Shown here: in pieces, positions 2,553 through 7,815 of the stretch | Position numbering within the stretch: position 1 is the stretch's first letter | Layout of the letters: the number at the start of each line of letters is the position of its first letter | Assembly (NCBI GenBank): GCA_025454835.1 | Contig: JALONQ010000008.1 | Coordinates: forward strand, 1-64,000 | Length of the DNA: 64,000 bases | From: Bacteroidota bacterium | GTDB lineage: Bacteria > Bacteroidota > Ignavibacteria > UBA10030 | Direction: 5' to 3' | Made by a program: the position numbers and the translations under genes | The notes under the pieces: model-generated | Seen by the model: only the letters and a program-made list of their open reading frames with translations | Databases searched by the model: none | Told to the model about the DNA's origin: nothing

Positions 2553-3911
2553 ATGACCTCCAACCTCACCATTCTTGTCGTCGACGACGAATCCGCCCAG
2601 CGCGAGATGCTCGCCGGACACCTGAAGGACCTCGGCTACAAGGTTCACATGGCCTCCTCCGCTGCCGAGGCGCTCGCAAAGCTCGACAGGGATACGATCG
2701 ACCTCGTTCTTACCGATCATCGGATGCCGGGCGCGACCGGGCTCGACCTGCTCCGCGACCTGAAGAAAAGAAATCCGGACACGTCGGTCGTCGTCATGAC
2801 CGCGTACGGTACGGTGGATGGGGCCGTGGCAGCCATCAAAGGGGGCGCCGATGACTACCTGCAGAAACCGATCGATTTTGACGCGCTTGAATTGCTGATA
2901 CGGCGCGTGCGCGCGAACAGACGATTGGTATCGGAGAACCGGCGGCTGAGGCAAGAGCTGAAAGAGCGGACGTCTCTGCCGGGCATCGTCGGGGAATCGC
3001 AGGCGTTGCAGGATGTGCTCTCCGTCGCGGGCCGCGTGGCCGATTCGGACGCCTCGGTCCTGATCCGGGGCGAAAGCGGCACGGGCAAAGAACTCGTTGC
3101 GCGGATGATCCATGATGCAAGCGCCCGCGCTGCCGGGCCGTTCATTGCGGTCAACTGTGCGGCGCTCAACGAGAACTTGCTCGAAAGCGAGCTGTTCGGC
3201 CATGAGAAGGGGGCATTCACCGGGGCCGACCGTCAACGCAAAGGACGCTTCGAGGCGGCGGACGGCGGAACGATCTTTCTGGACGAGATCGGGGATGTCG
3301 CCGCGGCGACGCAAGTGAAACTGCTTCGGGTACTGCAGGTGAGGACCATTGACCGGGTCGGCGGACACACGCCCATTCCCGTCGATGTGCGCATCCTGGC
3401 CGCCACGAATCGGGACCTCGAGGTGGCGATTCGCGGCGGGTCGTTCAGGGAGGACCTGTACTATCGCCTGAACGTCGTGTCGATCGAGATCCCTCCGCTC
3501 CGGAACCGGCGCCAGGACATTCCGGCGCTCATCGATCACTTCATCCGAAAGTTCTGCGGCAAACGCAAGAAGCCTCTGCAGGTCTCACGGGAGGCGATGG
3601 ACCGGCTGACGGCGCACGATTTTCCGGGGAACATCCGCGAGCTGGAGAACATTGTTCAGCGCGCGTGCGTCCTCACCCGTTCGGACCTCATCACGACAGA
3701 AGACCTTCCGCTGACCCTTCAACCGGGAACAAGCGAGCGTGAGGTGCCGACGAAGCCACGGACGTTGAAGGATCACCTGGAGCGTGTCGAGAGGGAACTG
3801 ATCCTCCGAACGCTGGACGAACACGGGGGGAACCAGAGTAAGGCGGCGAAAGCGCTGGGGATCTCGGAAAGCAATCTGCGATTCCGGCTCGCGAAGCTCC
3901 GGAACAAATGA
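2553..3911 (+). CDS. Sigma-54-dependent response regulator (NtrC family)
   Basis: 452 residues with the full NtrC architecture: receiver (about 1-120), sigma-54 AAA+ activator (about 145-370) and a Fis-type helix-turn-helix at the C-terminus. The receiver has the acidic pair at 11-12 and the phospho-acceptor Asp55 in LVLTDHRMPG. The ATPase has Walker A GESGTGKE (about 173), the sigma-54 contact loop GAFTGA (about 221) and Walker B with DEIGD. The HTH reads GNQSKAAKALGISESNLRF. It is expected to be phosphorylated by the upstream kinase and to activate sigma-54 promoters; the targets cannot be told from this window. Confidence 0.93.
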   Translation: MTSNLTILVVDDESAQREMLAGHLKDLGYKVHMASSAAEALAKLDRDTIDLVLTDHRMPGATGLDLLRDLKKRNPDTSVVVMTAYGTVDGAVAAIKGGADDYLQKPIDFDALELLIRRVRANRRLVSENRRLRQELKERTSLPGIVGESQALQDVLSVAGRVADSDASVLIRGESGTGKELVARMIHDASARAAGPFIAVNCAALNENLLESELFGHEKGAFTGADRQRKGRFEAADGGTIFLDEIGDVAAATQVKLLRVLQVRTIDRVGGHTPIPVDVRILAATNRDLEVAIRGGSFREDLYYRLNVVSIEIPPLRNRRQDIPALIDHFIRKFCGKRKKPLQVSREAMDRLTAHDFPGNIRELENIVQRACVLTRSDLITTEDLPLTLQPGTSEREVPTKPRTLKDHLERVERELILRTLDEHGGNQSKAAKALGISESNLRFRLAKLRNK

Positions 3912-3918
3912 GAAAGAA

Positions 3919-4038
3919 AAGCGACCACGCAAAGGCGCCAAGGCCGCGGAGGACGCAGAGGCTTGTGTGATATGTGGAAGATAAGCGACCACGCAAAGAC
4001 GCTAAGGCCGCGGAGGACGCAGAGGCTTGTGTGATATG
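3919..4038. repeat. Two 56-bp direct repeats of the CGCAAAG family
   Basis: Copy A (3919-3974) and copy B (3983-4038) differ at only two positions in 56 bp. Both begin AAGCGACCACGCAAAG and end GCTTGTGTGATATG, and they are separated by eight bases. They lie upstream of the GxxExxY gene. Their reverse complement matches the word pattern of the repeat downstream of that gene at 4571-4621, so the gene sits between inverted arms. Confidence 0.85.
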
Positions 4039-4139
4039 CAAAGGTCGCAACGTGCGCCAAGAAAGATGTAGGTGGGGTTGAGTTTATGTGTTCGGCTCGT
4101 TACATTTGCCGTTGACATTTCACGCTGAGGGGGTTTCTT

Positions 4140-4517
4140 GTGACAGAAAATCAGATCTCGCGAGAGGTCCTGGAAGCCGCACTGACTGTTCACCGGCGGC
4201 TCGGACCCGGACTCTTGGAATCCGCCTATGAATCGACTCTCATCTTCGAACTCGAAAAACGGGAACTTTCCTGCTCACGCCAAGTGGCCATTCCACTGAC
4301 GTATGATTCGGTTGAGATCGCGGTGGGATTTCGAGCGGACGTCATTGTGAACCGACTCGTGGTTCTCGAATTGAAATCTGTGGAAGCACTCAATTCTCTC
4401 CACAAAAAGCAACTTCTCACCTATCTCCGATTGTCTGGGCTCCGTCTCGGCCTCTTGATCAACTTCAATTCCGTCCTTCTCAAGGATGGTTTCGTCCGCG
4501 TCGTCAATGGATTATAA
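4140..4517 (+). CDS. GxxExxY family protein (PD-(D/E)XK nuclease-like)
   Basis: 125 residues starting at a GTG with a strong GAGGGGG ribosome binding site six bases upstream. The signature GLLESAY (G-x-x-E-x-x-Y) occurs near residue 25. A D...E-x-K arrangement (RADVIVN then LELKS) fits the PD-(D/E)XK nuclease-like fold assigned to this family. The biological role is not established. The gene is more AT-rich than its neighbours. It is flanked by CGCAAAG-type repeats in opposite orientations, an association I recall for this family elsewhere, which suggests a mobile or repeat-associated unit. Family assignment is confident; activity is inference. Confidence 0.85.
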   Translation: MTENQISREVLEAALTVHRRLGPGLLESAYESTLIFELEKRELSCSRQVAIPLTYDSVEIAVGFRADVIVNRLVVLELKSVEALNSLHKKQLLTYLRLSGLRLGLLINFNSVLLKDGFVRVVNGL

Positions 4518-4570
4518 TGTAACTTCGAGCGATTCCTGCTAGCATTGTTTCATTCTCCTATTCAAATCTC

Positions 4571-4621
4571 TCCTTTGCGATCCTTGCTTTCTTTGCGTGC
4601 TTTGCGTGAAATTCCTTTTCT
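4571..4621 (+). repeat. CGCAAAG-family repeat, inverted relative to 3919-4038
   Basis: Reads CCTTTGCGATCCTTGC followed by TTTGCGTGCTTTGCGTGAAA. In reverse complement it follows the same pattern as the direct repeats upstream of the GxxExxY gene, giving that gene imperfect inverted flanks. Confidence 0.75.
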
Positions 4622-4841: not shown

Positions 4842-5228
4842 ATGAAACGCATCACATCACTCACCAGTCTGTTGCTCCTGGCCGGGCTCGCGCTCGTCCT
4901 GACGAGCTCCGAGGCCCAGGCCCAGACGGCCCCCAAGGGCAAGCCTGCGGACCGCGGATTCATCGACGCCAACGGCGACGGCATCAACGACCGGGCGCTC
5001 GACGCCGACAACGACGGCGTGCCCAACGGTAAGGACCCCGACTTCGTCCGACCGATGGACGGCTCCGGCCGCAAGTACATGCGCGGAGCTGGCAAGGCGC
5101 AGAACGGATCCGGCCGAGGCAAGGGCATCGGGCCGCAAGATGGCTCGGGTCAGTGCACCGGCACGGGAGTCTGCGACGGCACCGGCCCCAAGGGTGCACG
5201 CGCCGGTAAGGGCAAAGGCAACGGCTGA
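4842..5228 (+). CDS. Secreted EF-hand/glycine-rich small protein
   Basis: 128 residues with a clear signal peptide (MKRITSLTSLLLLAGLALVL, cleavage probably after AQA). A Ca-binding-loop-like segment follows near 41-65, containing DANGDGINDRALDADNDG, of the dockerin/thrombospondin-3 type. The C-terminal half is rich in Gly, Lys and Ser with repeated GSG and GKG. GGAGG lies five bases before the ATG. It is first in a three-gene cluster with a related EF-hand protein and a beta-barrel-like protein. It probably acts in the periplasm or at the cell surface; no enzymatic function can be assigned. Confidence 0.8.
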   Translation: MKRITSLTSLLLLAGLALVLTSSEAQAQTAPKGKPADRGFIDANGDGINDRALDADNDGVPNGKDPDFVRPMDGSGRKYMRGAGKAQNGSGRGKGIGPQDGSGQCTGTGVCDGTGPKGARAGKGKGNG

Positions 5229-5284
5229 ACAGTTCTCGGGGGCGGGGCTTCGGCCCTGCCCCTGTGTTCTCAAAAGGAATGACC

Positions 5285-5641
5285 ATGAATCGATCCTCTT
5301 CCCTCCTCCTCCTCTCAACGCTCCTGCTTGCCGGCTCGTCGCTCGCCAGCGCGCAGGATTCCACGTCGCGGAGAGGTCCCCGAAACAACCAGGTGGAGAT
5401 GAAACGCAGCGGCGAAGCGAAGTTCGTCGACGAAAACGGCGACGGTATCGACGACGGCCTTCAACGGCGGGCGCGTCAGCAGTCGGCGGGCGTTCGAAGC
5501 GGCCAGCGTGCACAGTTCATCGACGCCGACGGCGACGGCATCTGCGACCAGCGCTCGGGTGTGATCGGCATTCGATTCCGCGGCGGCAAGGGTGCGACCA
5601 CAACGGGCGGCAAAGGCAAGGGCCAGGGAAGAGGACAATAA
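5285..5641 (+). CDS. Second secreted EF-hand/glycine-rich small protein
   Basis: 118 residues. The ATG at 5285 is preferred over one at 5279 because an AAAAGGA site lies about seven bases upstream. A signal peptide (MNRSSSLLLLSTLLLAGSSL) is followed by two DxDGDGIxD-type loops, FVDENGDGIDD and FIDADGDGICD. The tail is Gly/Lys/Thr-rich (GGKGKGQGRGQ). It resembles the protein encoded just upstream in signal peptide, EF-hand motif and basic glycine tail, so the two are probably paralogues. The next gene starts one base after its stop. Confidence 0.8.
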   Translation: MNRSSSLLLLSTLLLAGSSLASAQDSTSRRGPRNNQVEMKRSGEAKFVDENGDGIDDGLQRRARQQSAGVRSGQRAQFIDADGDGICDQRSGVIGIRFRGGKGATTTGGKGKGQGRGQ

Positions 5642-6786: not shown

Positions 6787-7815
6787 TTAATACTTCACCC
6801 CATCACATACGACCTCTGTTGACCCCGCCCCTGGCTTCAACTTCGCCTTCCGGAATCCCACCGACGGCACCACCCGCTCGTTCACCACAACGCCTTCTGC
6901 CGACATGATCCGCATGACCGGACGTCGGTAGATCCACTCCCTGTTCTCCAACGTCGGTGATTCGGCCGTCAGGATCGTCGTTCCTGACGGAGCCAGCACT
7001 GCATCCACGACAAGTTGACCTTGTCGAACGCGATACTCCCAACGACGTTGCCCCTTCGCCACATCAACTTCCATCACAGACATTTTCGTCCGACCAAGGA
7101 ACGTCCCGCCATCGGCCGAGAACTGTCCCGTCGAGAATCCGCCTTCCAGTCTCCGGTCCTGTGCACCGTTGACCAGCCACAATGCTTCATCGTTTGCTCT
7201 GATTCCGCTGCGAACTCCCGCCGCTACCAATATCCCGTCCGGCGCGATCACGATGCCCGTCGCCTGGATCCCCTCCAGCAGGCGTTCGCGCACCACATCA
7301 CCCGTCGCATTCAACACCACCAAACGACAATTGGCCGCGGAGGGTTCGGAGATCAGGAGCGCCAACGTTGCGTCGTGCACCGCGTGACGAATGACCCGTT
7401 CGTACTCAGGATTTGGGACCGGGGAAAGGGGGACGCGCCGGGCTAATCCTCCGTCGGGTCCGAAGAACTCGACGACGTTGTCGAAGCTGTGGATGAGTGC
7501 CACCGTGCCGTCTTCGAACACCGCCGGGGCCGGGGCCGCGATGTCGAACGGTATTTCGCGCAGGATCTCTGTGCGCAAGGTCCCTTGCGCGTCCATCACC
7601 CGGAACCGCCACGTAGAAGTCTCCCCCGCGCGTTGGGCCGGCTGGGCGGGCTTCTCGATCGTCACACGGTAGGTGGAGCGGTAGGATTCCTGACCAGTCA
7701 TCACGGACATGGCCAGAAGCAAGAGATAACCGCAAAGGCGCAAAGACGCTACGCCACGTTTGTTTCCTTTGCGTCTCTGCGTCTTTGCGGTGAGATCTTT
7801 CATTCGAGTCATCAT
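6787..7815 (-). CDS. Secreted protein, function unknown, with repeat-derived N-terminus
   Basis: 342 residues. The ATG at 7813-7815 overlaps the stop of the upstream gene (ATGA), suggesting translational coupling and fixing the start. The first about 40 residues act as a signal peptide: a basic segment (KTQRRKGNKR) then LCGYLLLLAMSV. These residues are encoded by a palindromic CGCAAAG repeat. The rest is beta-rich, with segments such as LALLISEPSAANCRLVVLN and APDGILVAAG that suggest a propeller-like fold. No active-site motif was recognised. It follows the T9SS cargo gene and may be co-expressed with it. Confidence 0.7.
   Translation of the reverse strand: MMTRMKDLTAKTQRRKGNKRGVASLRLCGYLLLLAMSVMTGQESYRSTYRVTIEKPAQPAQRAGETSTWRFRVMDAQGTLRTEILREIPFDIAAPAPAVFEDGTVALIHSFDNVVEFFGPDGGLARRVPLSPVPNPEYERVIRHAVHDATLALLISEPSAANCRLVVLNATGDVVRERLLEGIQATGIVIAPDGILVAAGVRSGIRANDEALWLVNGAQDRRLEGGFSTGQFSADGGTFLGRTKMSVMEVDVAKGQRRWEYRVRQGQLVVDAVLAPSGTTILTAESPTLENREWIYRRPVMRIMSAEGVVVNERVVPSVGFRKAKLKPGAGSTEVVCDGVKY
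7729..7791. repeat. Palindromic CGCAAAG unit inside a coding region
   Basis: Left arm 7729-7749 (ACCGCAAAGGCGCAAAG...) and right arm 7771-7791 (...GCGTCTTTGCGGT) pair over 21 bp with two mismatches around a 21-bp centre. The unit encodes part of the signal peptide of the minus-strand gene 6787-7815. It is the cleanest palindromic example of the CGCAAAG family in the window. Confidence 0.85.

Follow-up and report, generated by a model that had tools for sequence, protein, structure and literature searches.

A small GxxExxY nuclease gene inside inverted heptamer arrays: a candidate REPIN/RAYT-like pair

The GxxExxY gene in the window, the whole 64,000-nucleotide stretch of DNA that we analyzed, is best explained as a member of a widespread group of small elements, each a lone GxxExxY gene inside inverted arrays. 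At the ends of these elements, each inverted array comprises about four heptamers at a spacing of 8 to 12 bp. By comparing sequences, we show that the gene lies inside type-matched inverted arrays, that gene-less palindromes with the same arrays populate gene-carrying genomes, and that in one genome (G408) these palindromes share the end of a gene-bearing element. From these patterns, we infer that the nuclease moves the repeats. The GxxExxY nuclease and its own arrays would then form a REPIN/RAYT-like pair, in which the nuclease recognizes, cuts, and drives the copying of its own array type, a reading to which we assign a probability of roughly 60%.

Under this model, the nuclease would recognize its array type, either as direct sites or as a folded hairpin, and cut at or near it, after which repair or replication restart would copy the array-bounded DNA to other intergenic places, mostly the 3' ends of genes. 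Every nuclease copy would be tied to its own repeat type, and the gene-less palindromes would be non-autonomous derivatives, the status proposed for REPINs in relation to RAYTs. Since we know of no PD-(D/E)XK enzyme that joins strands by itself, host functions would probably have to do so. GxxExxY genes are annotated in very many genomes without a role, and a cognate repeat would give their proteins a testable substrate and function.

The window locus and its predicted nuclease

The features of the locus, and of a related unit downstream, are as follows.

3919 to 3974, forward strand: first copy of the left array (56-bp register), CACGCAAAG-g-CGCCAAG-gc-CGCGGAG-ga-CGCAGAG
3983 to 4038, forward strand: second copy of the left array, CACGCAAAG-a-CGCTAAG-gc-CGCGGAG-ga-CGCAGAG, the best inverted match to the right array
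4046 to 4065, forward strand: weak third half-site, CGCAACGTGCGCCAAGAAAG, 80% complementary to 4587 to 4606
4140 to 4517, forward strand: GxxExxY gene, 125 aa, predicted PD-(D/E)XK nuclease fold (profile scores, predicted structure, and residue conservation)
4573 to 4610, reverse strand: right array of reversed heptamers, CTTTGCG..CTTTGCG..CTTTGCG, opposite to the left arrays
7729 to 7791, no strand assigned: gene-less palindrome of the same heptamer kind with a hairpin fold, a putative non-autonomous derivative

A preliminary description of this locus had reported two almost identical 56-bp repeats upstream of the gene, a reversed repeat downstream, and a gene that is AT-richer than its surroundings, and all three observations were confirmed. 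The left arrays start 7 bases past the stop codon of a sigma-54 response regulator gene (2553 to 3911), and each consists of four heptamers (CGCAAAG/CGCCAAG/CGCGGAG/CGCAGAG and similar). The two copies are identical at 54 of 56 positions (59 of 64 in a 64-bp register), and the right array is shorter and lies in the opposite orientation. The gene, which starts with GTG, has a GC content of 51.3% versus 62.8% for the whole window, a value as low as that of 1.2% of equal-sized windows. An Rfam search of the window matched only a tRNA.

The inverted match between the left and right arrays had a score of 25; among 611 control positions sharing this geometry, 15 scored as high. By itself, this match is modestly unusual, and chance and composition, in the form of common heptamers in intergenic DNA, could produce one like it, as those 15 positions illustrate. 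Since the match is modest in the window alone, the case rests on comparison across loci and genomes.

The window protein scored 134.1 bits against TIGR04256 (GxxExxY; curated cutoff, 35) and 133 bits against PF13366 (PDDEXK_3; cutoff, 22), its sole Pfam match. Its predicted structure (pLDDT, 93.3) has a PD-(D/E)XK nuclease, or restriction-endonuclease-like, fold that appears to resemble Cas4, RecB, and lambda exonuclease. The best PDB match of the model was SSO0001 (4ic1_G; Z, 9.4; rmsd, 4.2 over 102 residues), which we take to be a Cas4 protein, and a sequence search against solved structures gave nothing significant. In an alignment of 19 correctly oriented GxxExxY sequences, H18, G22-P23-G24, E27, D67, K79, Q91, and Y95 were invariant and E77 was nearly so. 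The conserved H, D, ExK, and QxxxY, presumably the RecB/Cas4 motif set, add to the likeness in fold to Cas4/RecB-type nucleases, and fold and active-site residues agree with the PD-(D/E)XK-like motifs first ascribed to the family. In contrast to Cas4, which has the conserved cysteines of an iron-sulfur cluster, the GxxExxY protein is 125 aa long, is bounded by repeat arrays, and lacks these cysteines, none being invariant among the 19 aligned sequences. With PADLOC Cas4 models, the window protein had an E value of 0.046, and the protein of another GxxExxY element, L094, had one of 0.0013.

GxxExxY was found in 6 of 72,556 plasmid records and in none of 50,697 phage records, a near-absence that would fit a partnership based in the chromosome better than an infectious element. 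Decay is common: stop codons lie inside 6 of 75 GxxExxY reading frames (L102, L125, L141, L147, L153, and L159). Elsewhere in the window, two adjacent small secreted-looking proteins (4842 to 5228 and 5264 to 5641) carry D-x-[ND]-G-D-G repeats; the first of these matched no family in a Pfam search.

Arrays beside GxxExxY genes and in genomes with and without them

The window's own genome has nine GxxExxY places, all above the family cutoff and two with an internal stop codon. The arrays beside these copies are inverted and belong to CACAGAG, CGCAGAG, CGCAAAG, CGCCAAG, CACAAAG, and GCAGCG kinds. When the six copies with readable flanks were compared (three were omitted, two of those at contig ends), left sides matched their own right sides with a mean of 35.0, versus 19.0 for those of others (exact permutation P = 1/720). 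Since each copy has its own array type on both sides, the arrays are not one family that lies nearby by chance; the genome holds several distinct GxxExxY genes, each with its cognate repeat type. The earlier proposal of dispersed CGCAAAG units consequently stood only in part: the idea of dispersed repeats held, whereas that of a single CGCAAAG family did not, as the array type differs with each gene copy (CGCAAAG, CACAGAG, CGCCAAG, CACGAATT, and others).

The preliminary description had suggested surveying homologues for flanking repeats, and most proved to carry inverted arrays. The survey drew on 80 named loci from a species-genome scan, which include Cyanobacteria, Acidobacteria, Planctomycetes, Verrucomicrobia, Chloroflexi, Proteobacteria, and one archaeal bin, and on 39 whole-genome loci; 17 of these 119 were dropped for short flanks. 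When a match score of 26 or more between the 200-bp flanks on either side was required, inverted arrays were present at 81 of 102 loci from about 15 phyla, these loci being best-scoring matches rather than a random sample, compared with 2 of 102 stretches located 400 to 600 bp out. The other 21 loci were below this threshold, which was reached by 12.3% of mismatched flank pairs. Heptamers at 8- to 12-bp spacing numbered 316 near GxxExxY genes versus 24 in the far flanks, and over the 102 loci their orientation was toward the gene at 77, away from it at 11, and neither at 14. Protein identity also correlated with repeat type (Mantel r = 0.34; across phyla, 0.31; P = 0.0005), in a comparison that omitted 5 of 80 loci and took phylum labels from record titles. 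Given that proteins and arrays are linked, part of this covariation may be plain co-inheritance. One contig in the set (L104) has a Flavobacterium-type hemW site despite its Rhizobium sp. Q54 label and was probably binned incorrectly.

We also compared 296 genomes of the same phylum, in 151 of which a GxxExxY gene was found. The pattern CRCARAGNCRCARAG had 956 matches in the gene-bearing genomes and 53 in the 145 gene-free ones, where the reversed pattern gave a similar 37. The repeats are, then, far from equally common in genomes without the gene, a second comparison that had been suggested at the outset, and their number there is near background. Neither this comparison nor the survey of homologues refuted the initial suggestion that the protein acts on, or moves with, the repeat, and together they support it. 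At least three CRCARAGNCRCARAG matches were present in 63 of 151 genomes with the gene versus 2 of 145 without it (within-taxonomic-family permutation, P = 0.0005). For a second type, CACRRATTNCACRRATT (CACRRATT), the corresponding counts were 32 of 151 and 3 of 145; all of these genome counts were transcribed by hand before the statistics. Three or more CACRRATT matches occurred in 13 of 23 genomes with a second protein clade (a list drawn by hand, with E values up to 2.8e-32) and in 19 of 128 without that clade, and the coupling of CACRRATT to this clade is not exclusive. Repeats were also seen without a GxxExxY gene, namely CRCARAGNCRCARAG in G156 and G024 and CACRRATT in G205, G149, and G109. 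In other phyla, CRCARAGNCRCARAG was detected in 33 of 35 gene-bearing genomes, with up to 277 matches; this count covered gene-positive genomes alone, the presence/absence contrast being confined to one phylum.

The far-flank, mismatched-pair, and reversed-pattern controls thus fail to reproduce the signal that common heptamers would have to generate. Chance and composition are refuted by the flank and presence/absence surveys, and we give them almost no credence.

Gene-less palindromes and turnover at shared sites

The palindrome at 7729 to 7791 folded as single-stranded DNA with an energy of -20.3 kcal/mol (z, -6.0), and none of 200 shuffles folded as well, indicating that the dispersed unit mentioned in the preliminary description is real and forms a compact palindrome. 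The z scores of three gene-less palindromes folded as single-stranded DNA were -6.0, -13.1, and -12.8. Within 120 bp, an opposite array accompanied 11 of 15 gene-distal matches in the window's own genome (control, 5 of 80), whereas, by an identical strict criterion, one accompanied only 4 of 26 first-listed gene-distal matches of 30 other genomes (control, 1 of 156). The first residues (LTAKTQRRKG..SLRLCGY) of the reverse-strand window ORF at 6787 to 7815 are the translated palindrome, which may supply the start region of this ORF, or else the annotated start may be misplaced.

The relationship between gene-less units and gene-bearing elements was clearest in G408, an acidobacterial genome. 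The 5' end of its GxxExxY element, L094, recurs in all 20 gene-less palindromes retrieved, with 83 to 92% identity over 52 to 68 bp and a mean score of 76, compared with a best score of 37 against the GxxExxY flanks of other genomes; the match to the 3' end of L094 was weaker. Stem pairing among these copies was kept through two-sided (compensatory) changes (10 cells; 0 of 500 shuffles). Since the 20 copies were picked for a pattern match on both arms, the invariance of the middle helix partly reflects selection. In 26 genomes of other phyla (4 of 30 were dropped), gene-distal arrays matched GxxExxY ends from the same genome more closely than ends from different genomes (33.0 versus 24.8; P = 0.0002). 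The claim that gene-less units are derivatives is therefore directly visible in G408 and statistically supported in these 26 genomes. The G408 copies (L386 to L405) are accompanied by more short inverted stretches outside them (TTTCAAAACC.., TCAACC..), suggesting nested palindrome layers.

The folding of these palindromes bears on a different reading, in which GxxExxY is a host or selfish guard that cuts or trims hairpin palindromes or spares DNA with its own array. The arrays would then be its substrate or self-mark, and replication slippage and recombination, not the enzyme, would disperse them. The Cas4/RecB/lambda-exonuclease-like predicted fold, the strong single-stranded folds, the compensatory changes that keep the stem in G408, and the rarity of the gene on plasmids and its absence from phages are all consistent with such a role. 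By itself, however, a guard leaves unexplained why gene-less copies bear the end of a gene-bearing element and why genomes lacking the gene have almost no repeats, and we regard this reading as unlikely.

Movement of the pairs proposed here was assessed at shared sites in a Flavobacterium-like genus, so called because named Flavobacterium contigs have the same hemW site. Among 30 species in which we read the spacer that separates map from a methyltransferase gene, it was empty (2 to 28 bp) in ten, held a GxxExxY gene of the G170 kind in ten (one shortened), held a 37 to 41% identical GxxExxY gene with other arrays in eight, had lost the gene in one, and contained other DNA in one. Genes of the G170 kind (70 to 87% identical) carry CACAAAG/CGCAGAG-kind heptamer arrays, and the 37 to 41% identical kind carries CACGAATT/CACAGATT-type arrays. 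At the site of loss (L193 in G364), where the methyltransferase protein is 100% identical to that of G170, a left-array scar and a different palindrome, CCTGCAAGG..CCTTGTAGG, remain. The hemW spacer holds GxxExxY elements, several kinds of gene-less palindrome, or short spacers, depending on the species; in two of them it contains a GIY-YIG gene accompanied by palindromes of its own. A comparison of two sister genomes shows a CACGAATT palindrome nested inside a CACAGATT palindrome.

Species pairs in this genus with 85 to 92% identity differed in the presence, absence, and nesting of arrays; they yielded no nucleotide-clean empty site or exact junction. Different species have insertions at several sites in common, so gene-bearing copies have apparently seldom moved in recent times. 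For the window genome, the relatives were too distant to reveal empty sites at the nucleotide level, the best kinase match having 41% identity.

The elements lie at gene 3' ends and at times provide the stop codon TAA of TTTAACC, a placement that would also fit operators, terminators, or mRNA-stability hairpins, with the two-sided similarity reflecting regulation only. We consider this very improbable, as a genome can have dozens to hundreds of copies that lack the gene, which points to dispersal; single sites that are occupied in some species and empty in others, together with nested elements, also argue against regulation alone.

Known systems and other possible nuclease-repeat pairs

The proposed nuclease-array pair resembles REPIN/RAYT systems in several respects: a nuclease gene is bounded by inverted repeats (here at 81 of 102 loci), gene-less, hairpin-capable inverted doublets are dispersed in intergenic DNA, and a genome holds several distinct nuclease copies, each with its own repeat, such that repeat and protein types correlate. 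The two differ in that the nuclease here is predicted to be PD-(D/E)XK, with the window protein matching PF13366 only, whereas RAYTs are HUH/Y1 enzymes (PF01797). They differ also in the repeat, which here consists of about four heptamers with an 8- to 12-bp period rather than a short tagged palindrome; REP palindromes are short and GTAG/CGTC-tagged. Since the defining enzyme differs, we do not count the GxxExxY system as a REPIN/RAYT member. According to PMC3116915, RAYTs occur in a genome as distinct, single copies, each associated with REPs of its own, which is the arrangement that we see for GxxExxY with another enzyme. Our sequence comparisons suggest a partnership that spreads repeats and relies on an enzyme other than the known one.

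RAYTs could themselves be the drivers: the arrays would then be REPs that RAYT-type Y1 transposases mobilize in trans, and GxxExxY would be cargo or would have settled in them later. The dispersal of REPs by RAYTs is already well established as a concept (PMC3116915, PMC8266576), and PF01797 genes were present in 19 of the 20 repeat-rich genomes examined. Nevertheless, a heptamer pair occurred in either flank at 0 of 20 Y1 loci from repeat-rich genomes, and 7 of the 20 were flanked by other inverted repeats, some of them classical REP-like palindromes. Moreover, G202 is repeat-rich without any Y1 match, and array type follows the GxxExxY copy. We consider RAYT-driven movement very unlikely and, given the lack of heptamer arrays at the 20 Y1 loci, rejected it as the simplest reading. 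REPIN/RAYT and GxxExxY systems can occupy one genome while using different repeats: Y1 genes with classical REP-like palindromes were found in genomes that also carry heptamer arrays (L408, L411, L413, L419 to L421, and L423).

Relative to MITEs and insertion sequences, the likeness is that the end of a gene-bearing element recurs in copies without the gene (in one genome, G408). The difference is that the GxxExxY element lacks a DDE transposase and that no target-site duplication of fixed length was found at 78 loci, where element boundaries are uncertain. STRR repeats of cyanobacteria also consist of heptamer units, a likeness at the level of description.

In the open-access literature, which formed the scope of our search, the array 15-mers were printed nowhere. 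Among the matches listed there, other array and GIY-YIG repeat strings matched in a PCR paper and nowhere else, one mention of GxxExxY was unrelated to repeats, and no title or abstract tied GxxExxY/PF13366 or GIY-YIG to such repeats.

More speculatively, the lone ~125-aa PD-(D/E)XK nuclease may be the mobilizing enzyme of pan-bacterial, REPIN-like heptamer-array elements, invented independently of the HUH/Y1 RAYTs, with GIY-YIG pairs as a third such invention; this broader proposal is tentative. If true, much unexplained short palindromic intergenic DNA in bacteria would belong to nuclease-repeat pairs. A cognate repeat for GxxExxY would in any case extend the REPIN/RAYT idea from one nuclease superfamily to others. 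It would also account for many of the repeats dispersed between genes, a large class in which some are read as protein N termini (TAKTQRRKG..SLRLCG), and would offer a small nuclease that may recognize a heptamer series.

Small GIY-YIG genes (65 to 112 aa) in the same genomes were flanked by palindromes of their own kind at 16 of 23 loci versus 2 of 23 far controls, and these genes and their palindromes are possibly a third nuclease-repeat pair.

L426 to L454: GIY-YIG loci, e.g., L432, L443, and L451 (G222, G174, and G344), with palindrome kinds TGTCATTTCGACGAAGGAGAAATC, CTGAGCGAAGTCGAAG, and GATGCTGAAACGAGTTCAGCAT

GIY-YIG genes also form tandem arrays, with five units ~365 bp apart in G170 (C1:135236-136894; L440) and six units ~358 bp apart in G330 (C24:34487-36489). 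Each unit of the G170 array carries the apparent 3' end of a tRNA gene.
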